Assembly: GCA_903842345.1 (NCBI GenBank)
Contig: CAIMLR010000007.1
Coordinates: forward strand, 124,001 to 188,000
Length of the DNA stretch: 64,000 bases
Origin: an uncultured Myxococcales bacterium
GTDB lineage: Bacteria; Myxococcota_A; UBA9042
Direction of reading: 5' to 3'
Part shown: positions 1,504 to 18,272 of the stretch, piece by piece
How positions within the stretch are numbered: position 1 is the stretch's first letter
Layout: every line of letters begins with the position of its first letter
The notes under the pieces: generated by a model
Told to the model about the DNA's origin: nothing
Seen by the model: only the letters and a program-made list of their open reading frames with translations
The model's database searches: none
Made by a program: the position numbers and the translations under genes

Positions 1504-1624
1504 GAAGGCGGATGGGTGTCCGCTGAGTGCGCAACTTTTTTGCATCTCGCAGCAACAGAAGTTCAGGTGACCCGCGCGTCATGCGGGACAACGGTCACCG
1601 AGCCACCAAAGGATGCACTGCACG

Positions 1625-1975
1625 ATGACGGCAACCACGCAACTTCGCTACCGTTTGCACCCGCAAGCCGCGCACCGCAAGGTTGCCGGCGAAGTGTTTG
1701 TGGTCACGGGCGATCGGGCGTTTCATCGCATGCAAACCGCCACAGCCATCGCGCTTTTTGACGCGCTCGGGCAGGCCGAAGCGGGTGCAACCGCGGCGGA
1801 GCTCGTCGCGGCGCTGCGCCAACAATTCGATGTAAACAAAGTGATGGCGGAAAACGACGTCGCGGATTTTATTGAGACGCTCGTGACGCGCCAATTGGCC
1901 GTGCCGGTCCATCCGCCGCGCACCGCAGCCGATTGTCCCTCACCTGCCGACCCCCAAGCAGAGGTGACTCCATGA
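1625..1975 (+). CDS. PqqD-like RiPP recognition element (RRE) protein
   Basis: This 116-residue protein matches the PqqD pattern. An N-terminal beta-hairpin (HRKVAGEVFVVTGDRAFHRM) is followed by ATAIALFDALGQ, an acidic helix with 'TAAELVAALRQQFDV', and a final 'DVADFIETLVTRQLAV' helix. PqqD-like domains bind the leader of a ribosomal peptide and present it to modifying enzymes, usually a radical SAM protein. I chose ATG 1625 because AAAGGA (1608-1613) sits 11 bases upstream; an ATG at 1613 overlaps that element. The last 25 residues are Pro/Ala-rich and probably disordered. The stop overlaps the next start (ATGA at 1972-1975), so the giant lipoprotein is likely translationally coupled. It could be an RRE for the peptide at 9171, 7 kb downstream. 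The family call is firm; the partner is inferred. Confidence 0.8.
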   Translation: MTATTQLRYRLHPQAAHRKVAGEVFVVTGDRAFHRMQTATAIALFDALGQAEAGATAAELVAALRQQFDVNKVMAENDVADFIETLVTRQLAVPVHPPRTAADCPSPADPQAEVTP

Positions 1976-4900
1976 ATTCCAGCCATTCAAGCAACCGGTT
2001 CACGCCTCTGGCCCGCCAACCCCTGGTCTGGTTTAGCCTGCTCTGCGCCGCCACCGCGCTGTCTGCTTGCTCGCCGGACACACCCGCGCCGCATCCCGCG
2101 TGCATTTGGGAGGATGGCTGTCCGTCGGCGGACGCAGAAGGCGATGGCCAGGTCGGCGATTCCTCTGACGTGACGACGACGGTCACGCGGACGCTGGTCT
2201 TTTCAATTGATACCGCCATCGGTCCCGTGCTCACCGGCGACGTTTCCATCGCGACAATTGGCCCGAATGCGGACAAGGATCCGGCGACGGTCGGCGTGCA
2301 GGTCGATGTCTCCGTGACGACCGGCAACGTGCCTGACGGCGCGGCGCTGGAAGTGCTGCTGGACGGCGTCAAAGTGGGATCGCCGCAGGTCGTGCTCAAC
2401 AACGCGGGCCGGATCAATGGCATCACGTTGACGTGCACCGCGACCAACGCGCCGCACTCGATTTCCGTGCGCGCCATCGTCGACGCCGCCAAGGGCGACG
2501 CGGCTGTGAGCAAGGACAAGAGCCTGCTGGTCAAGTGCGCGCAGGCGTGCACCGCGACGGTCGATCCGCTGTCCCAGTCGTGCCTGACGCAGGACCAGGA
2601 TCCGCAGACGCCGGGTTTCCAGCAGAGTTTCATCGTGCACACGGACCAGTCGGATTGCACGGATGCGTACCTGCTCGTGGTGGGCCCGCCGGGAACGCCG
2701 ACTGAGACGGTGCATGTGGCGCTGAACGGTTCGACGTCCGTGCCCGTGATGGCGACGCTCGCGGTCGATGAAGCCGGGCTGATCGGCGTGACCGCGACGG
2801 TGATCGGCGTCGTCGAGGACATCAACAATCCGGATCGCCAGTCGGTGCCGTCCGCGCCGGTGAGCGCGGTCATCACGACGGAAGCGCCGACGATCGTGCT
2901 GATGCAGCCGGCTTCGGGCCAGATCAAGCTGAGCGACGACACCGATCCGGCGACGCCGGGCATCCAGATTACCCTCATCGGCATGGCGACAGCGCTGACG
3001 TCGGCCGACAAGAACGCGATCGAACTGTATGTCGACGGCACGCTGACGACGAAGACGACGCAGCAAATCGACGGCCAATTCGTGATTCCGCTGAGTTTCA
3101 CGACGACGGGGACGCACGCGCTGCTGGTGAAAGCGACGAACGGTTGCGGACTGAGCGGCCAGAAGTCGAAATCGCTGGCGGTGTTCGTCGACAAGGCAGG
3201 GCTCGCGATCCTCACGCCGACGCAGGATTTGGTGCTGCACGTGGCGGACGACCTGAACAAGACGACGGCCGACGTGCTCGACACGACGCTCTCCGTGGCT
3301 GTGACGACCGAGACCGCGGGCACGGACCTGGAGGTCTACTGCAAGCCCAAGATCGCCAAGGCCTACCCGACGACGCCGACCGCGACCGTCCTCTACAGCG
3401 ACGCGTCACAGCAGACGGTCGATATCCCGCTGTCGCTGTCGATCAGTCAGCTGGGCCAGGAAATCGAGTGCCGCGTGCAGGACAACTCGCCCAACCAGAC
3501 GGTGAGCGCGCCGGTGGGCTTTGTCGCCGCACTGCCGCCGCCGTGCCTGCATGTGATCACGCCCGCCGCGGCGGTGACCGTCACGACCGCTGGCGTGGAA
3601 TTCCTGCTGGCGACTTCCGGCTTGGATGGCCAGCTCGTGCAGGGCTACCTCATCACGCCGAGCGGCGTGCCGCTGGACGCCGTGGATCTGGGCACGCCGG
3701 TGACCAACGGTCTCGCCGGCACGTTCCCGCTGCTGGACGGCGGCGTACAGGTCCCGGACGGCACGTACACGCTGTCGTTCCAGGCGACGGATAAGTGGGG
3801 CAATCTCGCGGGTCAGTCGCTGTGCTCAGACGTCACGCGGACGGTGACCATCGACACGACGCCGCCGACGCTGGTGATTACGCTTCCGGTCAAGGCGACG
3901 CTGACGACGCTGGACGATCCGGACAGCGATCCCGCCAAGCCGGGCTACCAGATCGACGTGGAAGTGACGATTACGGATGCCCATGTGGTGTGCCTGAACG
4001 TCGACGGCGTCCTGTTCGCGTGCAATACCAACGTGCCAGAAGGCGCGGGCGTCGTCGTGTTCCACGATGTGACGCTGCAGCCGGGTCTGACGGCGCTCTC
4101 GGTGTACGGTTCGGACGTCAATGGCAACACCTCCGCGCCGGCTCCGACGCTCGTGACGCTGATCTCCGACGTGCCGATCGTGAAGTTCATCTCGCCAGTC
4201 GGCTCGCTGAAGGTCGCCACCGACAGCGTGACGTTCACGGTCAGCGTGACCAACCCGGCGGACGGCTTGCCCGTCGTGGCGGCAACGCTGGAGATCCTCC
4301 AGAACAGCGTGGCGATGCCCGTCACGCCGACGGAAACCGCACCGGGCGTCTACACCTTCACGTTGACCGGCTTCGCGTCGGGCGTGACGACCGTGCAAGT
4401 GGGCGCATTCGTGCCAGCGCAGCCTGAGAAGAAAGGCTATTCGGGCGAAATCACCGTCACCTTCAAGGGCGATCTGCCGACGGCGACGATCACCTCGCCG
4501 ACCGAGGGCCTCGTGTTCAACGCGAGCAACTTGACGTGCGCGCTGGGTCAGGCGGATTGCGTCCTGCCGGTCGCCGCGACCTTTACCAACGTCGAAGACG
4601 GCAGCGCGGTCGAATTGACCGTGACGTGTGGCGGCAGCGTCAGCAAGACCACCGGCACTGTGCAGGGCGGCAGCGCCAAGCTCGCCAACGTGAAGCTGCT
4701 GGACCAGAACGCGTGCGAGTTGTCGCTTGCGGTCACCGACGCTGCGGGCCAAACCGCGGTCTCGGCGGTCATTCACGTCACGGTGGATCGCGTCGCGCCG
4801 GTCTTTGGCGATCTCAAGTCGCCGACGCCGTACGCGGGCCTCACGCTGCTGGCGATCAACGACTTGGACGCCGATCCGACCAATGGCATGCAGGTGAACT

Positions 4901-7900
4901 GGGTCCAGCAGATCGCCGGGGTGCCCGCTGGCGCGACGGTGACGTGCGATGTGACGGACGATCTGGGCAAATCGGCGCCTGGCTTCTCGACCAACGTGGC
5001 AACGACGACGTCCGACGCGGTGTTCGAATCCGTGAATTTCGGCGCCATCACCCTGCCCAACGGCTACAACATCAAGATCGTCTGCACCGTGAAGGATCTC
5101 GCCGGCAACCAGAGCCAGAAGACGCTGCTCGCGCAGGTGCTCGCTGACTTGCCGCAGGTCGTCATGGGCACGCCGTACCCGAACGCCGATCCGTGCGCAG
5201 GCAACGGCGATTGCTCGTTTGGCGGCTTCTGCTACCAGAAAATCTGCACGGCGCCGTGGAACAAGGTCAGCGACCGCAAGCTCGCGTTCACGACCACCGG
5301 CCTGCCCGACGGCGCGCCTGCGCGGCTCTGCACCAACACGCCCGGCGTGACCGGCACCGCGTGCGCGACTGCCGGCTACGTCTCGATCGGCAGCACCACC
5401 ATCCAGAAATCCGCGGCGACGCTCGACCTCAGCACGCTCGCAGACGGCAGCTACCACGTGATGGTGGAAGTCTTCTTCGCCGCCAAGACCACGTGGGTGA
5501 CTTCACTGGACAGCGGCTTCCTCAAAGGTCGCGAGCGCGCGCTGCTCATCGACACCGTGCCGCCGCAAGTCGCGTCTGTGACAGGTCCGAGCGCGCCGGG
5601 CGTGCCCGCTGCTTGCCTCGCCGCCGCTTCGCAATCCGTGGCCGATGGCCAGCAGCCTGGCGGCAAGTTCCAGTTCCAGTTCGCCATGGCCAACGAGGAC
5701 GCAACCGTGTCCCTGCTCGTCAACAACGTCTCGGCCGGATCGCTGACGACGGTGGGCAAGAGCGGTTCGCTCGCCGTGACAATCGCAACGGAAGGCACGG
5801 CGACTTTTGAAACCGTGGCCGTCGATCTGGTCGGCAACGTCAGCGACATCCAGCAGTTGCCTTCGCTTTTCGTCGACACGATCGCGCCCAATGGCGCTTT
5901 CTCAACGCCGGACAAGTCGCCGCTCATCGTGGGCGACAGCCGCGACGTTGCCGTTGTGAGCGTGAATGACGACGTTGAAAACGAGCCGGTCACGGTCAAG
6001 GACCTCGGCCTCGTCAAGGCGGCGCAGAACTTCATCGCCGGCACCGCGCTCTTCCCGGACGCGACTTTTGGCCTGCTGTACGAAGGCTCGCACACGTTGA
6101 CCGCGGATCTGCGGGATCACTGCGCCAATACCTCCACGATCGGGACGACTCCCGCCTTGGTCGTTGTCGACACGCAGCCGCCGACGCTGACGATCACCGC
6201 GCCCTCCGAGGGATCGCTGTTCACGGACAACGACGATGCGGCGCCGGCGCAGAGCGGTTACCAGGTCGCGCTGACATTCTCGACGACCGGCGCGGCGACG
6301 TGGACGCTGGAGCTTGGCACGGACTGCGACTCCGGGTCCCTGAATTGCCCCAGCTATCAGCCGGCGGGGACCGGCACGATCGCCAATCCGGGTGGTTTGG
6401 AAGCGCCGACGCTTGTGACGGTGCCGTTTGGCAACACCGTGCACTACAAGTTCCGGCTGACTGCCGTGGACAGCGCCGGCAACAAGACCGTCGCGACGCG
6501 CGGCTTTGACGTGCTGCTGTCGGGCTGCCTCGTCAAGCTCACCGGCTTGCCGGGCAACGCGATGCTGAACACCCAAAAATGCGCGACGCCGGGGCAGAAT
6601 TGCGCCAGCGTCAGCCTGCCATTGACCGCGTCCTACGTCGGCCCGTGCGGTGCGGCGACGGCGATCAAGCTGATGAAGGGCGGCCTGGAGGTTGCCAGCG
6701 TCGCCCCGTCGGCGCAGGCCGCGGCGTTTGACGTGACAATCGTCGATGGCGACAACACCGATTTGGAAGCCGTGGTGTTTGAGGGGCTCAACGCCAAGGG
6801 TTCGTCCGGCAAGCTCGGCATCGCCGCGGACCTGACCAATCCAACCGTCAGCTTTGCCGCGGCGACTGTCCTCGGTTCGCCGACCGTGTCCGGGACGGCC
6901 GCGCTGCAAGGCAAGGACCAGGACTTGAACGCCGGCACGCCGGATCATCAGGTCCACCTGCAATTGGCGCTGGCGGATGCGCACTTGAATGGCGGAAAAC
7001 TCACGGCGCTCGACCGCACGGTCACTGGCGGCACGGCGCCGCTCAGCAATGCGTCCGTGACGCCGCCGGTCGCACTGACGGGCGCGGCGCAGCTGCTCGA
7101 CGTCCAATACGCCTCGCTGCTGCCCAATCAGGTCAACACGGTGAAGGCGACTGTGCAGGACAGCTTTGGCAATACCGGATCGGCGACCCTCGCCGTGACG
7201 GTGGACTGGCTGGCGCCGGCGGCGATTACGCTGGATGCGCTGGTGCCGGCGAACCTGAATCCGCGCCGTCCGTCGGCCAAGCTGACGTTCCAGGCGGTGG
7301 GCGACAACGGCGTGACCGGCAACGCGACGAGCTACCAAGTGCGGTATGCCAAGAAGGCGTTCACGACGCAGGCTGAGTTTGACGCCGCGTGCGATCCGAG
7401 CCAGATCGCGGGCTTCACCGCAGTCACGCCCGCCGCGTCGGGCGCATCGGACAGCGTGACGATCTCCGGCCCCGACGGCCGCAACCCGACCAACCTGTGC
7501 AAGTTCACGCCGTTTACGGACAACGGCATCTCGTCGTACTACTTCGCCATCGTGGCCGTCGACGCGGCGGGCAACAAAGGCCCGATGTCCAACGTCGTGT
7601 CGACCGACAAGTTGCGGCTGAACTACCAGCGCATCTCCAACAGCGGCGGTACGGGCTCCACGTTTGACCAACTCGCGTACCGCGCCCGCGTCTTTGGCCT
7701 GGGCGACCTGAACGGCGACGGCTTTGCCGATGTCGGTTTGGGCGGCGGCGCAACGACGCCTTTCTGCATCCTCTACGGCCGGGCGGGCAACGCTGACATC
7801 GACCTCGCGACCGAACCGGCGACGACGCTTCAGTGCCTTCCCAACGCGGGCGGCTTGGGCGGCGTTGTCGGCGGACCTGCGGACGTCAACGGCGACGGGC

Positions 7901-9129
7901 TCAGCGACCTCGTCATCGGCGCCAAGACCGGCAACGGCGTGCCGCGCGAAGTGTGGGTCTACCTCGGCAACAAGGGCGCGCAGTTGAACGCGACGCCTGC
8001 CGTCATCATCACGGGCGTCGTGGCGACGACCGCGACGGCGGCTGGACCGCAGCGCTTGCAGACCGTGGGCAACTTCAACGGCGACGTGTCGGCCAGCGGC
8101 AAGCCGGTCATGGACATCGCCGTGCGCAGCGCCAAGGACCTGAACTACGCGCAGTCGGAGACGGTCTACGTGATTCCGGGCAATCCCGGCTGGTCCAACG
8201 CTTCCCCGCTGACCATCACGCTGACCAACGCGCTGGACCGGAGCAACAACAACATTGTGCGCGTGCGTTTGAGCGATGGCACGAACACGTCCACGCTGTT
8301 CGGCCAGAACTTCCACGGCGGCAACGTGCTGCTGGAAAATGGCGGTGTCGGTCAGCAGTTTGACGAACTCGTCGTGTCGCAGCAGGCGTCGCCGCAGCAG
8401 GTCAACGTCATCCGCGGTCGCGAACTGTCGGGCGCGCTGGACCTGATGATGACGTCGGCGAGCACGGGCGTGCAGGCCAACGACACGGACACGGTGCGCA
8501 TCTTCCAGCAGACCGGGACCGGCCAGCAGTCCTTTGGCGCCTACTTCGATCTTGTCGAATTCGATGGCAAGCCCGGTCTTGACCTGGCCATTCAGCACCA
8601 GACCGGCGGCGTGGCGGACCATCCCGGCTTCTACTGGCTGCGCGGCTCGGCGATTCAGGCTGCGGCCGTCGCGCCGCCGCAGAACACGATCACGCTGTAC
8701 ATCACCGCGGCGGTCGCGGGCTTCACGGATCTGTTCTCCGTCGGCGCTGGCTACCTCAGTTGGTCGTTCGCGTGGGGTCCGCAGAACACCGGCAATTTCT
8801 TCGATGACCCGAGCACGGGCCTGCACACGGACGTCATGTACGCGCGCCCGCCGTTCACCGGCGCCACGGGCGGTGGCCAGCAGGTCATCTTGCGCATGGC
8901 GGTGCCGCGGTCAGAAACGGCGAATGAAGTGGGTTTTGTTTACGAAGACTTGGTGATTACCGATCCGTTCGTGCCGACCAACAGCCTCTTCGGCTACAAT
9001 ACGACGGCGGCCAGCGGAATCGGCTTCGCGCCGGCAGGCGACTTCAACAAGGACGGCTTCGTCGACTTGATCATCGGCTCAGCCGACGGCACGGGCGGCG
9101 TCAAGGGCAGCACGCTCATCGTTTACTAA
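1972..9129 (+). CDS. Giant (2385 aa) lipoprotein with Ig-like segments and C-terminal FG-GAP repeats
   Basis: The N-terminus is a lipoprotein signal: a hydrophobic stretch ending in LSAC, with the lipidated residue at Cys33. The body is a long series of Ig/cadherin-like beta segments, often introduced by D(T/R)xxPxxxI linkers (about residues 628, 940, 1193, 1301 and 1399), with scattered Cys pairs and an EGF-like cluster (CAGNGDCSFGGFCYQKIC, about residue 1075). From about residue 1905 it turns into FG-GAP/integrin-alpha-like units with Ca-binding loops (DLNGDGFADVG, DVNGDGLSDLVIG, DFNKDGFVDLIIG) that run to the end. It is probably anchored in the outer membrane and exposed. The start is the ATG at 1972 in an ATGA overlap with the RRE gene; a TTG 39 bases upstream would spoil the signal peptide. 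No enzymatic domain is visible. Its location inside a RiPP-like operon is the odd feature; adhesion or peptide display is only a guess. Confidence 0.85.
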   Translation: MNSSHSSNRFTPLARQPLVWFSLLCAATALSACSPDTPAPHPACIWEDGCPSADAEGDGQVGDSSDVTTTVTRTLVFSIDTAIGPVLTGDVSIATIGPNADKDPATVGVQVDVSVTTGNVPDGAALEVLLDGVKVGSPQVVLNNAGRINGITLTCTATNAPHSISVRAIVDAAKGDAAVSKDKSLLVKCAQACTATVDPLSQSCLTQDQDPQTPGFQQSFIVHTDQSDCTDAYLLVVGPPGTPTETVHVALNGSTSVPVMATLAVDEAGLIGVTATVIGVVEDINNPDRQSVPSAPVSAVITTEAPTIVLMQPASGQIKLSDDTDPATPGIQITLIGMATALTSADKNAIELYVDGTLTTKTTQQIDGQFVIPLSFTTTGTHALLVKATNGCGLSGQKSKSLAVFVDKAGLAILTPTQDLVLHVADDLNKTTADVLDTTLSVAVTTETAGTDLEVYCKPKIAKAYPTTPTATVLYSDASQQTVDIPLSLSISQLGQEIECRVQDNSPNQTVSAPVGFVAALPPPCLHVITPAAAVTVTTAGVEFLLATSGLDGQLVQGYLITPSGVPLDAVDLGTPVTNGLAGTFPLLDGGVQVPDGTYTLSFQATDKWGNLAGQSLCSDVTRTVTIDTTPPTLVITLPVKATLTTLDDPDSDPAKPGYQIDVEVTITDAHVVCLNVDGVLFACNTNVPEGAGVVVFHDVTLQPGLTALSVYGSDVNGNTSAPAPTLVTLISDVPIVKFISPVGSLKVATDSVTFTVSVTNPADGLPVVAATLEILQNSVAMPVTPTETAPGVYTFTLTGFASGVTTVQVGAFVPAQPEKKGYSGEITVTFKGDLPTATITSPTEGLVFNASNLTCALGQADCVLPVAATFTNVEDGSAVELTVTCGGSVSKTTGTVQGGSAKLANVKLLDQNACELSLAVTDAAGQTAVSAVIHVTVDRVAPVFGDLKSPTPYAGLTLLAINDLDADPTNGMQVNWVQQIAGVPAGATVTCDVTDDLGKSAPGFSTNVATTTSDAVFESVNFGAITLPNGYNIKIVCTVKDLAGNQSQKTLLAQVLADLPQVVMGTPYPNADPCAGNGDCSFGGFCYQKICTAPWNKVSDRKLAFTTTGLPDGAPARLCTNTPGVTGTACATAGYVSIGSTTIQKSAATLDLSTLADGSYHVMVEVFFAAKTTWVTSLDSGFLKGRERALLIDTVPPQVASVTGPSAPGVPAACLAAASQSVADGQQPGGKFQFQFAMANEDATVSLLVNNVSAGSLTTVGKSGSLAVTIATEGTATFETVAVDLVGNVSDIQQLPSLFVDTIAPNGAFSTPDKSPLIVGDSRDVAVVSVNDDVENEPVTVKDLGLVKAAQNFIAGTALFPDATFGLLYEGSHTLTADLRDHCANTSTIGTTPALVVVDTQPPTLTITAPSEGSLFTDNDDAAPAQSGYQVALTFSTTGAATWTLELGTDCDSGSLNCPSYQPAGTGTIANPGGLEAPTLVTVPFGNTVHYKFRLTAVDSAGNKTVATRGFDVLLSGCLVKLTGLPGNAMLNTQKCATPGQNCASVSLPLTASYVGPCGAATAIKLMKGGLEVASVAPSAQAAAFDVTIVDGDNTDLEAVVFEGLNAKGSSGKLGIAADLTNPTVSFAAATVLGSPTVSGTAALQGKDQDLNAGTPDHQVHLQLALADAHLNGGKLTALDRTVTGGTAPLSNASVTPPVALTGAAQLLDVQYASLLPNQVNTVKATVQDSFGNTGSATLAVTVDWLAPAAITLDALVPANLNPRRPSAKLTFQAVGDNGVTGNATSYQVRYAKKAFTTQAEFDAACDPSQIAGFTAVTPAASGASDSVTISGPDGRNPTNLCKFTPFTDNGISSYYFAIVAVDAAGNKGPMSNVVSTDKLRLNYQRISNSGGTGSTFDQLAYRARVFGLGDLNGDGFADVGLGGGATTPFCILYGRAGNADIDLATEPATTLQCLPNAGGLGGVVGGPADVNGDGLSDLVIGAKTGNGVPREVWVYLGNKGAQLNATPAVIITGVVATTATAAGPQRLQTVGNFNGDVSASGKPVMDIAVRSAKDLNYAQSETVYVIPGNPGWSNASPLTITLTNALDRSNNNIVRVRLSDGTNTSTLFGQNFHGGNVLLENGGVGQQFDELVVSQQASPQQVNVIRGRELSGALDLMMTSASTGVQANDTDTVRIFQQTGTGQQSFGAYFDLVEFDGKPGLDLAIQHQTGGVADHPGFYWLRGSAIQAAAVAPPQNTITLYITAAVAGFTDLFSVGAGYLSWSFAWGPQNTGNFFDDPSTGLHTDVMYARPPFTGATGGGQQVILRMAVPRSETANEVGFVYEDLVITDPFVPTNSLFGYNTTAASGIGFAPAGDFNKDGFVDLIIGSADGTGGVKGSTLIVY

Positions 9130-9170
9130 TCAGGCCAATCAGCGTCCACAAGGCGGCGAAGGGGAAACAC

Positions 9171-9347
9171 ATGAACCAGACGGAACAACAGCAGAACATC
9201 GAACAGCGCCAGGGCGATTGCCAGTCGGCGCTGCGGCCGTACGTCAAGCCGGAAGTGGAGACGCTGGGCGGCGCGCTGACCACGCTGCTGGCGTCGGGCT
9301 GCCAATGCCCGATTTGCCCGCCGGACCCCAGCGCCGACAACACCTGA
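9171..9347 (+). CDS. Putative RiPP precursor peptide (58 aa)
   Basis: This small gene lies between the giant lipoprotein and the kinase-like gene, with GAAGGGG (9158-9164) placed 6 bases before ATG 9171. The polar, Gln-rich N-terminus (residues 1-20) is followed by RPYVKPEVETLGG (22-34). That segment fits the YxxPxxxxLG leader motif bound by PqqD-like recognition elements in lasso and related peptides. Next come ALTTLLASG and a Cys/Pro-rich end, CQCPICPPDPSADNT, with Cys44, Cys46 and Cys49. The layout is that of a leader plus a Cys-containing core, and the flanking genes are maturases. The Cys residues could be substrates for radical SAM thioether formation. The product structure is unknown. 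An N-terminal signal peptide is absent. Confidence 0.75.
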   Translation: MNQTEQQQNIEQRQGDCQSALRPYVKPEVETLGGALTTLLASGCQCPICPPDPSADNT

Positions 9348-9349
9348 AC

Positions 9350-10189
9350 GTGACCCGCACGTTGGCCCCTTCCGTTCGGCGTTGGGCGTCGCGTTTTGGC
9401 GATACGGCCTATGCGGTGGACCTGCCAGAGGCGTTTGGCGCCGTGCGTCGGCCATGGCGTGGGCCACTCGGCGCGGATGTCGCCTTCCAGTTTGCCGCTG
9501 AAGCGACCGCGGCGCCTTTGGGGGAAGCGGCAACGCGGTTCTCCCGCCTTGACGCCGATGGCTTCGCGTTTACCGCCGCTTCGTGTCACGGCGCGGGTTC
9601 ATGGGCGCAGCGCGCCGGGACCGTCTACCTGCATGACGGGGAGCAATCGCCGCTGGCCCGCGTCCAGATGCTGCAGGAAGCGCTGTTTGCCCCGGTTTAC
9701 GGCCAGTTGCTCCTGCAAGGCGGCCTCCTCCTGCACGCCGCGACGCTCTGGATCGACGGCCGCGCCTACGTGGTGGCGGGCTACTCGACCGCCGGCAAGA
9801 CGACCCTGAGCGGGCGTTTTGCGCCGAATTGGCTGAGCGACGAGCACGCGTTCCTCGCCCGTGATGGCGACCAGTGGCACGTGCTGCGCCACATCGATTT
9901 CCGCGGCAATGAAGGCGATTTCCCGTGGCGCGCACCGGTCGCAGGCCTGCTCTGGCTCGGCCCGGACCGGAGCCAGTCGCGGGTCGCGCCGTTGTCGCCT
10001 GGGGACGCACTGCAGCGGCTCCTCCCGCAGGCTTTGGTCGCAGGTCCGCCGACTTCCGCGCTTGTGCTGGACGCAGTCGCGCACCTGTGTCAGCAATTGC
10101 CCGTGATGGAACTGAGTCACAACCTTGCAACTTCCGTAGCAGATTTGGCGGAAATGATCGCGGGAGCCAGCCATGCCGCAAGGGGATGA
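9350..10189 (+). CDS. HPr kinase-like P-loop protein of the RiPP-like operon
   Basis: This 279-residue protein resembles the HprK/PEPCK-like proteins found beside PqqD-type and lasso peptide genes. LLLHAATLWIDGRAYVVAG leads into a P-loop, GYSTAGKTT (residues 144-152), then LSDEHAFL, the acidic segment that follows the P-loop in HPr kinases. The C-terminus has Leu/Ala helices ending in LAEMIAG. I chose GTG 9350 because it lies two bases after the precursor stop, which fits translational coupling; the same frame is open upstream, but that stretch overlaps the precursor gene. The next gene overlaps its 3' end by 17 bases. Members of this family are thought to phosphorylate Ser/Thr or to assist maturation; whether the precursor is its substrate here is inference. 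Confidence 0.7.
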   Translation: MTRTLAPSVRRWASRFGDTAYAVDLPEAFGAVRRPWRGPLGADVAFQFAAEATAAPLGEAATRFSRLDADGFAFTAASCHGAGSWAQRAGTVYLHDGEQSPLARVQMLQEALFAPVYGQLLLQGGLLLHAATLWIDGRAYVVAGYSTAGKTTLSGRFAPNWLSDEHAFLARDGDQWHVLRHIDFRGNEGDFPWRAPVAGLLWLGPDRSQSRVAPLSPGDALQRLLPQALVAGPPTSALVLDAVAHLCQQLPVMELSHNLATSVADLAEMIAGASHAARG

Positions 10190-11360
10190 CGCCAGCCAAC
10201 TCGACAGCTTTCTCACGGCGCTGAAGGCGGCCTGGGCAACCGAAGATCGACCCGTCAGCGCCCACCTGGACGTGACGTATCGCTGCGACCTCGATTGCGC
10301 GCACTGCTACCTCGACAACCGCACGACCTGGCCGGAGATGACAACGGCAGAGTGGCTCGACGTGCTGCAGCAACTGCACGATGCCGGCGTTCTGTTCCTC
10401 GTATGGAGCGGCGGCGATGTGCTCATGCGCAGCGATTTTGCCACGCTCCTGACGCGCGCCGCGGAGCTGGGGCTGCTGAGTCGGGTCAAGACCCACGGCG
10501 GCCAGGTCGACGCCAACTGGGCGCGCCTTTTCGCCGACAGCAAGGTCATCCGCACCGACGTCAGCGTGTACAGCTTGCGGCCAGAGATCCACGACGCGCT
10601 GACGCGGCGACCGGGTTCGCTCGTCAACACGCTGAACGGCGTCGCGGCATTGCGGGCGGCGGGTGTGCCGGTCAAGGTTTCCTGCTGGGTGCAGCCGGCC
10701 ATCATCGACGAAATTGGCGCGCTCAGTCAGCACTTTGCCGCGATGGGCTGCACGATCAGCTTTGAAACGCGCACGACCCTGGACCTTTCCGCGTCGGCCA
10801 ATCTGGACGCGATGCGGCTGGAGGGCGATGACCTCCTGCGCGCGCGCGTCGCGATCCTGCAGGCGCAGCCCGTGGCCAGACCGACCGCGCTCGCCGATCG
10901 CACCGTTCAGGATCCCTGCGGCGCGGGCCGAACCCTCGTGTACATCAGCCCGGACGGCGAACTCTGGCCGTGCATCAACTTCCCGATGGCGCTGGGCAAC
11001 CTGCGCGAGAAGCCGTTGCTGGAGATCTGGCGGGAATCCGCGGCCCGCAAGAGCCTCGTGGCGTGGGACAACCGCGCGCGCACGTCGTGCCAAAGCTGCG
11101 CCGGCAGCGGGTTCTGCTTCTTCTGCCCGGGCGACGCGTACAAGACCACCGGCGATTTCCGCAAGGCGCCCAATCTTTTCCACGCCGAGACCCGCGCCAA
11201 AATGATCGCGTGGGAGCAGGTCAACGGCGACACGTTCAGCGCCGCGGACTGGTCCAGCGTGCCGGACGAAAGCGGCCGCGCGCCCGCCACCAAACAGTTC
11301 ATCTTCCCGATCCACCGACCCAAACGCGGCGCCGGCGCCCGGGTTACGCAGGCCAAATGA
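10173..11360 (+). CDS. Radical SAM/SPASM peptide maturase
   Basis: This 395-residue enzyme has the [4Fe-4S]-SAM motif CDLDCAHC (Cys38, Cys42, Cys45), preceded by the usual strand HLDVTYR. A 'GG' motif for SAM binding follows (WSGGD), then a TIM-barrel-length middle. A SPASM-type C-terminal cluster domain has Cys249, Cys267, Cys306, Cys309, Cys315 and Cys318 and the typical ISPDGELWPC and LGNLREKPLLEIW segments. SPASM proteins modify ribosomal peptides (thioethers, C-C crosslinks, epimerisation) using auxiliary iron-sulfur clusters. ATG 10173 follows GGGAG by seven bases and overlaps the kinase-like gene by 17 bases; the stop overlaps the next start. It probably acts on the peptide at 9171 with the PqqD-like protein. 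The reaction type cannot be read from the sequence. Confidence 0.88.
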   Translation: MPQGDDASQLDSFLTALKAAWATEDRPVSAHLDVTYRCDLDCAHCYLDNRTTWPEMTTAEWLDVLQQLHDAGVLFLVWSGGDVLMRSDFATLLTRAAELGLLSRVKTHGGQVDANWARLFADSKVIRTDVSVYSLRPEIHDALTRRPGSLVNTLNGVAALRAAGVPVKVSCWVQPAIIDEIGALSQHFAAMGCTISFETRTTLDLSASANLDAMRLEGDDLLRARVAILQAQPVARPTALADRTVQDPCGAGRTLVYISPDGELWPCINFPMALGNLREKPLLEIWRESAARKSLVAWDNRARTSCQSCAGSGFCFFCPGDAYKTTGDFRKAPNLFHAETRAKMIAWEQVNGDTFSAADWSSVPDESGRAPATKQFIFPIHRPKRGAGARVTQAK

Positions 11361-11761
11361 CGCTTGTTTGGCATGACCTCACCGGGCGGTCCATGTGGCC
11401 GTTGGGGGCGCCGATGCAGGCCGGTGTGGCGCCGGTTGTGGCGAGGACGCTGCAGGTGGGCGACATGATTGCCTTCATCGCCAGCGACGCGCCCGTCCTC
11501 TGGCTGCATCGCGTGGTGCGGGTTGAAGCGGACGCGGTCGTCACGCGCGGCGATACCAACGGCTACGACGACCCGCCCGTGCCGTTCACCGCAGTGCTTG
11601 GGCGGGTCGACGCGGTGCGGATTGGCGCGCTGGTGTTGCCGCTGCCGCATTCCGGGCGCCTTGGCGCGCTGCAGCGCCGCGCCGGCATCGCGTGGTCGCA
11701 TTTCGCGCCGGCGTTGCGGCGTTTGCGCGCGGGACGCGGGCCGGCGCGAAAAGGCGCATGA
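11357..11761 (+). CDS. Soluble S26-type (His-dyad) signal peptidase-like protein
   Basis: This 134-residue protein has the signal peptidase signatures of the SipW/Sec11 type. GRSMWPL carries the likely nucleophile Ser12, LHRVVRVEA puts His51 where bacterial LepB has Lys, and TRGDTNGYDD supplies Asp66 and Asp71/72. It has no N-terminal membrane helix, so it should be cytoplasmic. That fits removal of a peptide leader better than cleavage of exported proteins. Small S24/S26 proteins of this kind occur next to PqqD and HprK-like genes in RiPP clusters. It starts in an ATGA overlap with the radical SAM gene. The C-terminus is Arg-rich (RRLRAGRGPARKGA). Leader cleavage is inferred. Confidence 0.72.
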   Translation: MTLVWHDLTGRSMWPLGAPMQAGVAPVVARTLQVGDMIAFIASDAPVLWLHRVVRVEADAVVTRGDTNGYDDPPVPFTAVLGRVDAVRIGALVLPLPHSGRLGALQRRAGIAWSHFAPALRRLRAGRGPARKGA

Positions 11762-14106: not shown

Positions 14107-15993
14107 ATGTACTTGGAATGGCTCGACAACGAGGGCGAGTTGGCGCGGCTGCCGCTGGATCCGGCGATGGAAGCCGTGACGATCGGCCGCGGTCAGGCAT
14201 CCACGATCTACTCCAAGGAGACGTCCGTCTCCCGCAATCACGCACGCATCGGCTGGGAGCCGTCGGGCTACTACATCAAGGACCTCGGTTCTTCCAACGG
14301 CTCGTTCATCAACGGCGAGCGCGTGCAGCGCGGCCAACTGCATGAAGGCGACGTCGCGCGGTGCGGTGAAGTGCTGGAGATCCACGTCTGCCCCGGCGCG
14401 CCGACCGATGCCAAGCAGAAGACCATGCACCTGGTGGACAAAGCACCAGGTCGCGCGGCCCCGACGCCCGCCGCGGTGAAAAGCACGGATCGCGAAGTCC
14501 TGGTGGCGGCGGCGCGCGCAGCACGCCTGGGTCAAGCGGGCGGTGGCCTGCGCACAGACGCCCGCCCGGTGGAGCCGACGCCCGTACGCGAGGTCTCCCG
14601 CCCGCAGCTGGATGGCCGGGAGAGCGCGCCGCGCCCGGATCCGCGCGTCCTGACCCCGCCACCTGCCGCCGATCCCACTTTTCGCGCCCCGGTTCACGCC
14701 GCGCACCCGGATGCCCAGCGGCGCATCGCCCAGCTGGAGGACCAGCTCAACGCCACCCGCGCCGCGCTGACCAAGGCGGAGAACGACGCGAAGGCCGTGG
14801 ACGCGCGCTCCATGCGCTATTCCGTGGAGCTGGACGGCCTGAGCGACAAGTACGTCAAGCTCAAAGAGCACAACCAGGTGCTGAGCCAGGAGCTGGAGAG
14901 GACCCGCGGTGAGCTGCGGAACCGGGAAGACGAATCGTTTGAGGCCAATCGCGCCGTTGAAGAGCTCAAGAGCCAGATTGGCCAGGCGCGCGAGAAAGCG
15001 GCGGATGCGACCGAGCAGCTGTCCGGCCTGAAAGTGCGAATCACCCAGAAGGATCGGCAAATTGAGGAGCTGCAGCGACAGCTGGACCTGCTTGAGTACG
15101 AACTTCGTGCGGCGCGCGACGAAAACGACAGCCTGCAGTCGAGCTTCAACCGCGAAGGCGGCGACATGAGCCGGCTGGAGCGCAAGATCAACCTGCTCCA
15201 GGAAGTCATCCAGGAGAAAGAGGCGCTGATCGAGCAGCTGCGGATCGACCTGCGCGACAAGGACACGGAGATTCGCCAGGTGCGCATGGGCGTGGGCATC
15301 TCCGACCTGGAGCACGAAAAGCGCCGGCTGCTGGAGGACTACCACCAAGCGACGCGGCGCGTGGACGAGTTGAATGACCGGCTGCTGCAGCAGACGCGCC
15401 AGACGGAGACGCTGAAGGGTGAACTGGACGCCGCGCGCGACGCAGTGGAACGCAAGCCTGTGGCGCTGGCGGACGTGACGGAGCACCCGGATTTCAAGGC
15501 CAAGCTGCGCGAAGTGGAGCGGGCGCGCGAGGAAGTCAGCCAGCTGCAGCGCGATCTGGCGAAGGCCGATTTGCGGCTGGAGACGACTGCGGCGGATCTG
15601 GCCCAGCAGAAAAGCGCGGCTTCAGAATCGCACGTGGCGCAAAAACGCGTCGAAGCGCTCGAACTCAAGCTGCAGGAGACGGAGGCGCGGCTCAACGACG
15701 CGTTGACGACGCCCAAAACGTCCGCGCTGCCGCCGGATCTGGCCGATGGGATTGAGAGCCTGCTCGACGCCGCCGTGGCCGCGCGGTCGAACGCCGCGGT
15801 GGTGCGCCGGTACGCCGAGGACCTGCAGGCGCAGCGCAGCAAGTGGCCAGAGCTGGCGGACACGCTGGAGCTTGTCAACGACATCGCCAGCGTGTTGGCC
15901 AACGATCTGGCCGAACAGACGCGGACGCTGGAAGTGCTGCACCGCAAGGTTGTGACGCTCAGCCCCCTGCCCGCTGAAGGAACCGCCCCATGA
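14107..15993 (+). CDS. FHA-domain protein with long coiled coil
   Basis: Residues 20-95 form a forkhead-associated domain. VTIGRGQASTI is the phosphopeptide-binding loop region, SVSRNHARI the conserved Ser-Arg-Asn-His motif, and LGSSNGSFINGE the turn before the last strands. FHA domains bind phosphothreonine and often act with Ser/Thr kinases. A Pro/Arg-rich linker (about residues 120-200) is followed by some 350 residues of heptad-rich coiled coil (ERTRGELRNREDESFEANRA and similar) and a helical tail. The stop overlaps the ATG of the AAA+ ATPase gene. Scaffold or cytoskeletal roles are plausible. A candidate promoter lies at 14020-14049. Confidence 0.82.
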   Translation: MYLEWLDNEGELARLPLDPAMEAVTIGRGQASTIYSKETSVSRNHARIGWEPSGYYIKDLGSSNGSFINGERVQRGQLHEGDVARCGEVLEIHVCPGAPTDAKQKTMHLVDKAPGRAAPTPAAVKSTDREVLVAAARAARLGQAGGGLRTDARPVEPTPVREVSRPQLDGRESAPRPDPRVLTPPPAADPTFRAPVHAAHPDAQRRIAQLEDQLNATRAALTKAENDAKAVDARSMRYSVELDGLSDKYVKLKEHNQVLSQELERTRGELRNREDESFEANRAVEELKSQIGQAREKAADATEQLSGLKVRITQKDRQIEELQRQLDLLEYELRAARDENDSLQSSFNREGGDMSRLERKINLLQEVIQEKEALIEQLRIDLRDKDTEIRQVRMGVGISDLEHEKRRLLEDYHQATRRVDELNDRLLQQTRQTETLKGELDAARDAVERKPVALADVTEHPDFKAKLREVERAREEVSQLQRDLAKADLRLETTAADLAQQKSAASESHVAQKRVEALELKLQETEARLNDALTTPKTSALPPDLADGIESLLDAAVAARSNAAVVRRYAEDLQAQRSKWPELADTLELVNDIASVLANDLAEQTRTLEVLHRKVVTLSPLPAEGTAP

Positions 15994-17642
15994 GCCAGTC
16001 GCCAGTCGCCGCCGCCGCAGCCCAGTCGCCTCATCGCCCGGTGCCCACGGCGGTCGACGAACTACACTACCTCATTCGCGCGCAGTACAAGCTGCTCTAC
16101 GTGGTGTCCGCTGAAGAGGAGCGCGTGGAGCGTTGGCTGGGCGAATTGGCGACGCTGGAGAGCAAGCCGCTGCGCGAGCGCTGGGACGTCACGGCGTGGC
16201 AGGCGCGGCAGCTGATTCACTGGTCGTGCTCGCAAGGTTTTCGCTGCGCGTCGATGGACGTGCCGGGCGACGTGCGCGACCCGATTCGCGCGCTGGACTG
16301 GATCGCCAACAACTTGCAGCGCGACGCCATCGTGGTGCTGCGCGATTTTCACCCGTTCCTCAACGACCCGATGGTCGCGCGGCGCGTGCGCGATTTGCCG
16401 CACCTGTTCGCCGATGGCACAGCCAAGCGCTCCGTCGTGTTTCTCAGCCCGATCGTCAAGATTCCGGCGGAGATGGAGAAAGACCTGGTCGTCGTCGATT
16501 TTGACCTGCCGGATCGCCAGACGCTGGAAGACATCGTGCGCGATCAGGCTTTTGCGGGCGCGGCGTCGCAGCGTTTTGGCAAGAATTTCCAGAAGGTGCT
16601 GGAGAGCCCCGCGCTGCAGCGGGAAATCGCGGAAGCCGCGCTGGGCCTGACGGAGCAGGAGGCCCGGCAGGTCTTCCAGAAGACGAGCGTGCGGGACAAG
16701 GGCTTTCACCTGCCGACCATTCTGCAGGAAAAGAAACACATCATCCGCAAGTCGGGAATTCTGGAGTTCTACGAAACGGCGCTCGGCATGGAGTCCGTCG
16801 GCGGGCTGCAGCTGATGAAGGATTGGCTGAACAAGCGCCGCCACGCGTTTTCGCCCGCGGCCCAGGAATTCGGTCTGCCGGCGCCCAAGGGAATCCTGCT
16901 GCTGGGCGTGCCGGGATGCGGCAAATCCCTGTCGGCCAAGGCGATTTCCCAAGCGTGGCAGATGCCGCTCCTGCGGCTGGACGTGGGCAAGGTGTTTGGC
17001 TCGCTTGTCGGCTCGTCCGAAGAGAACATGCGCAAGGCCATCAAGACCGCGGAAGCCGTGGCGCCGGCGATCCTGTGGCTGGATGAATTGGAAAAAGGCT
17101 TCTCGGGCACCAAGTCGTCAGGGCAATCCGATGGCGGCACGACTGCCCGCGTGTTCGCGACGTTCCTGACGTGGCTGCAGGAGAAGTCCTCGCCGGTTTT
17201 TGTGATTGCGACCGCGAACGACGTCAGCCAACTGCCGCCGGAGCTGCTGCGCAAAGGCCGTTTTGATGAAATTTTCTTCGTCGACCTGCCCAACAAGTCC
17301 GAGCGCGAGGAAATCCTCAAGATCCAGCTGCGCAAGCGGCACCGCGTGCCAGAAACGTTTGACATGAAGCGGCTTGTGGACGCGACGTCGGGCTTCTCGG
17401 GCTCGGAGCTGGAAGAGGCGGTCGTCGGCGCGCTGTACGATACGTTTGACGTGAGCCAGGGCCAGACGGACATCCACACCGACGAGCTTGTGGCGGCGTG
17501 CCGCGAGGTGATTCCGCTGAGCCAGACGATGCGCGAACGGCTGGCAGAGATGCGCGAATGGTCCAAGTCGCGCGCGCGGCGGGCGTCGCCGGCGGATGAC
17601 ACGTCGTCGGGCAATGAAACGGCGCCGAAGCTGGAAATGTAA
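15990..17642 (+). CDS. Ycf46-type AAA+ ATPase
   Basis: The protein has 550 residues. The N-terminal 250 residues match the Ycf46 layout: ELHYLIRAQYKLLYVVSAEE, an inactive P-loop-less domain with the ADDFHPFL-like segment VVLRDFHPFLNDP, and VKIPAEMEKDLVVVDFDLP. A canonical AAA+ module follows, with Walker A GVPGCGKS (about 306-313), Walker B ILWLDELEKGF (about 361-370) and a sensor ending in RKGRFDEIFFVDLP. The start forms an ATGA overlap with the FHA gene. Ycf46 is best known from plastids and cyanobacteria, where it travels with Ycf35; the same pairing occurs here. Its substrate is unknown. The Ser/Arg-rich tail after the AAA lid looks disordered. Confidence 0.85.
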   Translation: MSQSPVAAAAAQSPHRPVPTAVDELHYLIRAQYKLLYVVSAEEERVERWLGELATLESKPLRERWDVTAWQARQLIHWSCSQGFRCASMDVPGDVRDPIRALDWIANNLQRDAIVVLRDFHPFLNDPMVARRVRDLPHLFADGTAKRSVVFLSPIVKIPAEMEKDLVVVDFDLPDRQTLEDIVRDQAFAGAASQRFGKNFQKVLESPALQREIAEAALGLTEQEARQVFQKTSVRDKGFHLPTILQEKKHIIRKSGILEFYETALGMESVGGLQLMKDWLNKRRHAFSPAAQEFGLPAPKGILLLGVPGCGKSLSAKAISQAWQMPLLRLDVGKVFGSLVGSSEENMRKAIKTAEAVAPAILWLDELEKGFSGTKSSGQSDGGTTARVFATFLTWLQEKSSPVFVIATANDVSQLPPELLRKGRFDEIFFVDLPNKSEREEILKIQLRKRHRVPETFDMKRLVDATSGFSGSELEEAVVGALYDTFDVSQGQTDIHTDELVAACREVIPLSQTMRERLAEMREWSKSRARRASPADDTSSGNETAPKLEM

Positions 17643-17654
17643 CGGGAGGCCCGC

Positions 17655-18065
17655 GTGTCGCATTTCACGACAGTCCAGACCAAGATCACGAGCCTGACGC
17701 GGCTGGAGCAGGTGCTGACGGAGTTGAAATTCAACTTCTCCAAGGCGGAGGCCGGGCAGCTCCTGAACGTGAATGGCTATCTGGGACAAAAGGCCCAAGC
17801 GCAGATCGTCATCCACGCGTCCAGGACGTACGACATTGGCGTGAACGTGGACGCCCAGACCGGCGCGGCGACGTTCGTGGCGGACTGGGAATTTGTTGAA
17901 ACGACGGCGGGTTACACGCAGGCCGAATTCACCAGGAAGGTCATGCAGCGCTACGCCTACCACACGGTCAAGGAAGAAGTGACCAAGCGCGGCTACACGC
18001 TGGAAGAGGAAAAAGTGGACGGCGAAGGCCATATCCACGTCAAAGTCTCGTCGTGGGGGGATTGA
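17655..18065 (+). CDS. DUF1257 (Ycf35-like) protein
   Basis: This 136-residue protein has the DUF1257 pattern: SHFTTVQTKITSLTRLEQVL at the start, GYLGQKAQAQIVI in the middle, and an ending with YAYHTVKEEVTKRGYTL and a charged strand. Plastid Ycf35 belongs to this family. The start is GTG 17655, nine bases after GGGAGG. The family almost always neighbours a Ycf46-type ATPase and DUF2997, as here, so the three probably form one functional unit in the cytoplasm. No enzymatic motif is visible. Confidence 0.85.
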   Translation: MSHFTTVQTKITSLTRLEQVLTELKFNFSKAEAGQLLNVNGYLGQKAQAQIVIHASRTYDIGVNVDAQTGAATFVADWEFVETTAGYTQAEFTRKVMQRYAYHTVKEEVTKRGYTLEEEKVDGEGHIHVKVSSWGD

Positions 18066-18068
18066 GCC

Positions 18069-18272
18069 ATGGCACAGCGGCGGGAAATCCAGTTCACGAT
18101 TGATGACAACGGCGAAGTGTCGATCCAGGTGCTCGGCGTCAAGGGCGCGGAGTGCGAGAAGCTGACGCGCGAGATGGAAGAAGCGCTGGGCATCGTGACG
18201 ACGCGGCAGCACACCAGCGAGTATTGGCAGGCGCCGGAGACGGTGGTGAAGTTGGAGCAAGGCGAGGAATAG
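18069..18272 (+). CDS. DUF2997 protein
   Basis: This 67-residue protein shows the short DUF2997 fold pattern: REIQFTIDDNGEVSIQVLGV (two strands) followed by GAECEKLTREMEEALG (helix) with the conserved Cys, then a tail ending in EYWQAPE. It starts three bases after the DUF1257 stop. These proteins occur with DUF1257 and a Ycf46-type ATPase; their function is not known. The single Cys in the helix is typical of the family. Confidence 0.82.
   Translation: MAQRREIQFTIDDNGEVSIQVLGVKGAECEKLTREMEEALGIVTTRQHTSEYWQAPETVVKLEQGEE

Follow-up and report, generated by a model that had tools for sequence, protein, structure and literature searches.

Linear polyphosphorylated peptides (LPPs) are RiPPs of Bacillota, described from the lpp cluster of Paenibacillus alginolyticus in a study published in 2026 (PMC13381572). 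According to the available part of that article, the cluster encodes an RRE, the HprK-like kinase LppK, a SipW-like leader protease, an NTP transferase and an MsbA-like exporter (PMC13381572). The precursor LppA has the leader YxxPxVLxHQxIxFETxxS, in which Ser3, 18 residues after the motif tyrosine (Y+18), is phosphorylated; the Ser-His-Asp protease LppS (S29, H68, D93), aided by the RRE, cuts LppA after residue Y+15 (PMC13381572). The distribution of LPPs is patchy and driven by transfer, according to the authors, and the combination of a kinase with a signal peptidase is described as restricted to Bacillota (PMC13381572). Kinase-bearing lasso peptides are represented by the bsf cluster of Bradymonas sediminis, with the HprK-like enzyme BsfK; here the leader contains YxxPxL, and the phosphorylated core Ser3 corresponds to Y+19 by the positions given in the accessible part of the report (PMC10368454).

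The locus analyzed here comes from an uncultured Myxococcales bacterium and lies in a 64,000-nucleotide stretch of DNA, hereafter the window. Its genes stand on one strand in the order PqqD/RRE, giant lipoprotein, precursor peptide, HprK-like kinase, radical SAM/SPASM enzyme and S26 protease. On balance, the peptide probably gives rise to a Myxococcota RiPP of an LPP-like, kinase-and-signal-peptidase type whose pathway has recruited a radical SAM/SPASM enzyme. Going by the available text on LPPs, the two systems share a discrete RRE, a YxxP leader, an HprK-like kinase and a variable tail, as well as a signal-peptidase-I-like Ser-His-Asp leader protease, which in the window is putative and recognized by fold and residues. 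The Ser at Y+18 of the window peptide has the spacing of LppA Ser3, and the Ser-His spacing is 39 in both LppS and the window S26 protein (S12-H51); together with a Ser or Thr within Y+17 to Y+19 throughout the class peptides, these agreements support the view that the cassette works like an LPP pathway. Membership in the LPP family is not claimed, because the peptide agrees with the LPP leader consensus at Y, P, V+5 and S+18 only, without L+6, HQ, I+11 or FET, because neither an NTP transferase nor an MsbA-like exporter was found by Pfam in the cassette or ten flanking genes, and because the host is not a member of Bacillota and its cassette adds a radical SAM/SPASM enzyme and a giant lipoprotein. 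The N-terminal helix with which LppS contacts the RRE is likewise missing from the S26 protein, which has 11 residues before its Ser, and the patchy occurrence of LPPs in Bacillota contrasts with a conserved chromosomal locus in Myxococcota.

The bsf cluster, as far as its report was available, also shares a discrete RRE, a YxxP-type leader and an HprK-like kinase with the window. His129, Gly144, Gly149 and Lys150 of the window kinase match residues needed in BsfK, although the window kinase has D-E where BsfK has D-D (PMC10368454). The bsf system relies on a lasso cyclase and a B2 protease, whereas the window has a radical SAM enzyme and an S26 protease; neither a lasso macrolactam cyclase C nor a B2 peptidase was found among the cassette and ten flanking genes.

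Three further systems resemble the cassette through its radical SAM enzyme. The PQQ system (PqqA/PqqD/PqqE) has the same pairing of a PqqD-type RRE with a PqqE-like radical SAM/SPASM enzyme; the window peptide lacks the Glu/Tyr core of PqqA, and the cassette adds a kinase and an S26 protease. The SynChlorMet cassette comprises the HprK-like ScmC, the PqqD-like ScmD and the radical SAM enzyme ScmE, all of which appear among the NCBIfam matches of the window cassette. Membership was rejected, as the scores fall below the curated cut-offs (32.7/125, 13.5/100 and 86.1/400 bits for ScmC, ScmD and ScmE, respectively), and a literature search on SynChlorMet and GeoRSP returned, among the matches listed, unrelated "SCMC" papers only. 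Sactipeptides and ranthipeptides share with the window a SPASM radical SAM maturase and Cys in the core, and the sactionine former SkfB is the closest solved structure; the window peptide differs from them in its short core with as few as one Cys in the family, and in the accompanying kinase and S26 protease.

The precursor gene and its partners

The precursor gene occupies positions 9171..9347 on the forward strand and encodes 58 amino acids. Translation yields both the YVKPEVETLGG segment and the CQCPIC segment reported in the preliminary description, which had placed the open reading frame in the middle of maturases, and rightly so; the kinase, radical SAM and PqqD genes form one cassette with it. 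The only start codon in the open frame is ATG 9171, preceded at 9159..9164 (+) by the Shine-Dalgarno-like AAGGGG, 7-12 bases upstream. The gene begins 41 bp after the stop of the lipoprotein gene and ends 2 bp before the GTG start (9350) of the kinase gene. The peptide matched no Pfam or NCBIfam family; in an NCBIfam scan of 38 members of the peptide family, a single match was obtained, at chance level (E 0.026), and automatic annotation will therefore probably miss the peptide. The closest homologue, from genome G004, also has 58 codons and aligns without indels. The dN/dS values against it are 0.25/0.55 over the whole gene, 0.49/0.42 for residues 1-20, 0.13/0.56 for residues 21-43 and 0.18/0.71 for residues 44-58, all from few sites and indicative only. 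The reading frame is more than a chance occurrence, since related genomes carry homologues that keep both the frame and the position. With a short peptide gene beside maturases, a conserved leader and a variable core, the frame almost certainly encodes a RiPP precursor.

The first gene of the cassette (1613..1975, +) encodes a discrete PqqD-family RRE protein of 120 aa (PF05402, 30.0 bits, cut-off 23.4), whose closest solved relatives are lasso RREs, with weak E values (best 0.0012). Its stop overlaps, as ATGA, the start of the gene for a giant lipoprotein of 2385 aa (1972..9129, +), which combines a lipobox (LSAC) with Ig-like domains and FG-GAP repeats. The lipobox Cys is kept in all 11 aligned homologues, and identity amounts to 69-79% within the genus and 40-43% within the family. 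Of approximately 40 Cys residues in this protein, 36/40 are kept in 11/11 aligned homologues.

Downstream of the precursor, the HprK/PEPCK-fold kinase (9350..10189, +) possesses a P-loop (G144..GK150T), His129 and Asp164. In alignment A4, His129, Gly144, Gly149 and Lys150 are invariant (13/13) and Thr152 is kept. An AlphaFold2 model (pLDDT 91) superimposed on PEPCK with Z 12.8 and an rmsd of 5.3 over 241 aligned residues and matched HprK/P with E 6e-4; the sequence matched TIGR04249 at 4.7e-8, below that family's cut-off. The radical SAM/SPASM maturase (10173..11360, +) carries a CxxxCxxC motif and six SPASM Cys, all invariant in 13/13 sequences of alignment A3. Its closest solved relatives are SkfB (2e-35) and PqqE (9e-24), along with chain 5v1q, named "Radical SAM".

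The last gene (11357..11761, +) encodes a 134-aa protein of the S26 (archaeal/SipW) type with S12, H51 and D72 as Ser-His-Asp residues, proposed to be the leader peptidase. In alignment A5, His51 and Asp72 occur in 13/13 sequences and Ser12 in 12/13, the exception (L045) being short at the start. The match to TIGR02228 (1.8e-6) scored 27.9 against a cut-off of 51.85. A structure model (pLDDT 87) aligned with E. coli LepB at Z 9.7 and an rmsd of 2.6 over 93 residues, in a comparison in which unrelated Tudor folds also appeared lower down; Foldseek gave weak matches (best E 0.024). No transmembrane anchor is visible in the sequence. At 1e-10, the S26 profile matched 14 of 20 relatives, comprising 13/13 genomes of the family and 1/7 genomes from other families of the class, which indicates weaker conservation of the protease beyond the family.

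Recurrence and chromosomal position

The same gene set recurs within a group of uncultured myxobacteria, while the end of the peptide varies strongly. When the peptide by itself was used as query against 52 related genomes, homologues turned up at the corresponding position within the same genus and family; a profile (A1) search at E 0.01 matched 28 of the 52 class genomes. Among weaker profile matches, 15 of the 17 examined adjoin the lipoprotein gene; two of 30 profile matches (L074 and L075), weak and with no cassette gene nearby, were rejected as homologues. Alignment A2 comprises 28 homologues from the window's class. At all 28 of these loci the lipoprotein gene lies directly upstream of the precursor, and the kinase and radical SAM genes follow at 27, the exception stopping at a contig end. 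Twelve longer loci were compared: 10 have all five partners in order, the S26 gene is found in all 12, and PqqD in 10, both misses being at contig ends.

A2, searched against 377 genomes of the phylum at E 0.001, matched 57, of which 36 belong to the window's class and 21 to other classes, with one precursor match listed per genome. Twenty of the 21 other-class loci were fetched (G238 was left out), and at a permissive E 0.001 an HprK-like match lay near 18 precursors, a radical SAM match near 15 and an S26 match near nine. In L106-L109, the kinase and radical SAM genes lie approximately 4-6 kb from the precursor.

Linkage was also evident from the radical SAM side. Among the 52 class genomes, 40 have the radical SAM gene, 36 the precursor and 33 both, with seven having the radical SAM gene only, three the precursor only and nine neither (Fisher 4e-4, ancestry ignored). 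The two genes are at most 2.5 kb apart in 32 of the 33 genomes; in G034, they lie at the ends of two contigs. Four of the seven radical SAM genomes (of 40) lacking a precursor match were inspected: a missed precursor-like ORF is present in L187 and L193, the latter with W for Y, and the pattern used found no precursor-like ORF in L189 or L196. As for the three genomes with a precursor but no radical SAM match at 1e-50, a weaker radical SAM match adjoins the precursor in G041, and G031 and G042 have theirs near contig ends. In a named collection, drawn mostly from the same genomes and thus not independent, the precursor was found at 26 of 28 cassette-type loci, 25 of them at E 1.2e-5 or better and L153 at 0.022; none was found at L154, on a contig edge, or at L158. 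One record, L138 (CAMDBH010000004.1), is titled as a "Klebsiella pneumoniae" MAG and carries the myxobacterial cassette, including the precursor and a radical SAM enzyme of 54% identity; mislabeling or a mixed bin is the probable explanation.

The surroundings of the cassette are conserved as well. Eight longer loci extend 0.9 kb or more to the left of PqqD, and in 7 of them TsaB-like genes stand left of the cassette; a TPR gene stands to its right in 11 of 12 longer loci. This fixed locus indicates that the cassette is passed on vertically in the family. In the window, the left flank includes an M50 protease and a TsaB/TsaD-family gene, and the right flank TPR, LysM, FHA, AAA, DUF1257 and DUF2997 genes. 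No exporter, NTP transferase or immunity gene was recognized when the ten flanking genes were scanned with Pfam; one of these ten gave no Pfam match. The FHA, AAA ATPase, DUF1257 and DUF2997 genes form a row at 14107-18269, and the AAA ATPase is 81-95% identical, in the same order, in those relatives whose sequence reaches that far.

Leader, tail and candidate modification sites

Alignment of the gap between the lipoprotein and kinase genes across relatives, the check proposed in the preliminary description, gave the predicted picture of a conserved leader followed by a variable, Cys-containing tail. The YxxP motif (Y24, P27; 9240..9251, +) is invariant in the 28 class homologues. The longer leader motif initially read from the window, YxxPxxxxLG, thus holds in its YxxP part (28/28), whereas its LG part does not (L at Y+8 in 8/28, G at Y+9 in 7/28). 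The class-wide pattern is instead [RK]xPYxxPx[VIL]x[ST], with Ser or Thr at Y+7 in 27/28, plus Leu at Y+16 in 25/28. Ungapped pairwise identity is 0.369 for the block from Y-3 to Y+16 (0.082 in shuffled sequences), 0.169 for the tail (0.091 shuffled) and 0.098 for the N-terminal part (0.077 shuffled), contrasts that delimit a free N-terminus, a conserved leader and a divergent tail. Comparing the tails with gaps gave 0.40 against 0.33 for shuffled sequences, a poorer separation than the ungapped comparison.

The tail, counted from Y+16 on, is 11-25 residues long. In the window, the predicted core region is LASGCQCPICPPDPSADNT (9288..9344, +), or CQCPIC and onwards if the peptide is cut before Cys44. 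Cys is concentrated there: across the 28 homologues, it accounts for 59 of 530 residues after Y+15, compared with 2 of 1076 in the part that ends at Y+15. Every homologue has at least one core Cys, and 10 of the 28 have exactly one. The metal site that the C-x-C-x-x-C arrangement had suggested is therefore not conserved, and Cys cross-link chemistry, the other option raised at the outset, fits the peptide family better. A very improbable reading is that the peptide is a redox-cofactor precursor, in the style of PQQ or mycofactocin, used by the giant lipoprotein: the PqqD protein, the PqqE-like enzyme, the single match per genome at a conserved locus and the FG-GAP protein adjoining in 28/28 loci would suit such a role, but a cofactor needs a conserved core, and this tail diverges in both sequence and length and has no fixed residue save a Cys at varying positions.

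The proposed phosphoacceptor is Ser42 at Y+18 (9294..9296, +). Ser or Thr occupies Y+18 in 23/28 class homologues, whereas none of the other offsets between +8 and +23 exceeds 8/28; all 28 have a Ser or Thr within Y+17 to Y+19. A further 28 peptides, 20 from other classes and eight more from the window's class, typically take the form RRPYxxPx[VF]xSxxxFE[RT]xAL[SA]C; Ser stands at Y+17 in 10 of them, Ser or Thr at Y+18 in seven and Cys at Y+18 in 15. With Ser or Thr at Y+18 in seven of these 28, phosphoserine at this position cannot be general to the phylum. Two additional precursor types were seen in other classes: FET[ML]ALSC with varying tails (L106-L109), and FERQALSCxGC-like, mostly with a C-terminal RS or QS (L110-L114, L128, L129, L132, L133); some of the clusters concerned have other gene orders.

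The segment LLASGC also resembles a lipobox, and LASGC comes close to the lipobox consensus in the genus, which raises the alternative of a small lipoprotein or a spurious reading frame. This reading was rejected as extremely improbable: the distance between Leu and Cys varies across homologues (Cys is mostly at Y+20 in A2 and at Y+18 elsewhere), polar and charged residues stand in homologues where a hydrophobic region would be expected, and the long charged N-terminus, the cassette linkage and the YxxP conservation all argue against it.

More weight, although still rather little, attaches to the alternative that the product is a sactipeptide- or ranthipeptide-like RiPP in which the thioether alone matters and the HprK-fold protein has another ATP-dependent role, for example as a scaffold or as the kinase of another partner. 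The core Cys common to all class homologues and the proximity to SkfB are in line with it, as is the loss of the Y+18 Ser from most of the further peptides despite a kinase-like match near 18 of 20 other-class loci. Conversely, the P-loop and His of the kinase are invariant, Ser or Thr at Y+18 is strongly kept within the class, and BsfK and LppK, as presented in the available parts of their reports, are RRE-coupled HprK-like peptide kinases.

Proposed maturation route and role

For the preferred reading, an LPP-like RiPP with a recruited radical SAM/SPASM enzyme, the following route can be outlined. Conservation establishes its starting point, a leader with YxxPx[VIL] joined to a divergent Cys-containing tail. 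By analogy with known RRE biology, the PqqD protein would grip YVKPEV and present the peptide to the enzymes. The HprK-like enzyme may then phosphorylate Ser42 at Y+18, the position used in LppA, a modification toward which the balance of evidence tips slightly. The radical SAM/SPASM enzyme would introduce a Cys-based cross-link into the tail, most probably a thioether, and that the Cys are cross-linked by this enzyme is likely. Removal of the leader by the S26 Ser-His-Asp protease, near residues 39-43, is quite likely. Signal peptidases favor small residues at positions -3 and -1 of the cut, so ASG|C44 is one candidate site, and cleavage after L39, by analogy with LppA, is another.

The resulting product of approximately 15-19 aa might function in the cell envelope in concert with the giant lipoprotein of the cassette, a role suggested as a hypothesis by the fixed locus and the lipoprotein itself; whether the peptide partners with this protein is an even call. 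The divergence of the tail would similarly suggest lineage-specific recognition. A conserved leader with a divergent core is typical of RiPP toxins, and a defense or competition peptide of the bacteriocin kind has thus to be weighed. That function is nevertheless improbable here, given one copy per genome, conserved flanking genes and scanned flanks in which no exporter or immunity gene was found; the patchy, transfer-driven distribution that the accessible text reports for LPPs is also unlike that of the window cassette (PMC13381572). A conserved chromosomal place throughout a bacterial family, beside a 2385-aa lipoprotein, suggests a physiological role over warfare, and this fixed place sets the cassette apart from most RiPP clusters.

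Taken in its fullest form, the proposal describes a vertically inherited, single-copy, chromosomally fixed Myxococcota RiPP with two modifications, a phosphorylated serine and a Cys cross-link made by radical chemistry; a cytosolic signal-peptidase-like protease would cut it, and in the cell envelope it would be a lineage-specific ligand or tag for the giant lipoprotein of the same operon. That all of these elements hold together is doubtful. If the preferred reading is true, the cassette would represent a RiPP type that joins an RRE-guided kinase, a signal-peptidase-like leader protease and a radical SAM/SPASM enzyme. This combination of three modules was not found in the literature searched, including the available parts of PMC13381572, PMC10368454 and PMC12710340, and the word "radical" does not occur in the accessible text of PMC13381572. 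What appears to be new is that radical SAM chemistry is added to the LPP logic outside its original phylum, which would extend the kinase and signal-peptidase logic from Bacillota to Myxococcota, with the LPP family, on the text available, as the nearest known relative.

The lipoprotein was also surveyed along its length. Conservation per 120-residue block ranges from 0.53 to 0.70, with no obvious hypervariable receptor region among these blocks. At 23588-25525 (-), the window encodes another protein whose translation, on visual inspection, resembles FG-GAP proteins.
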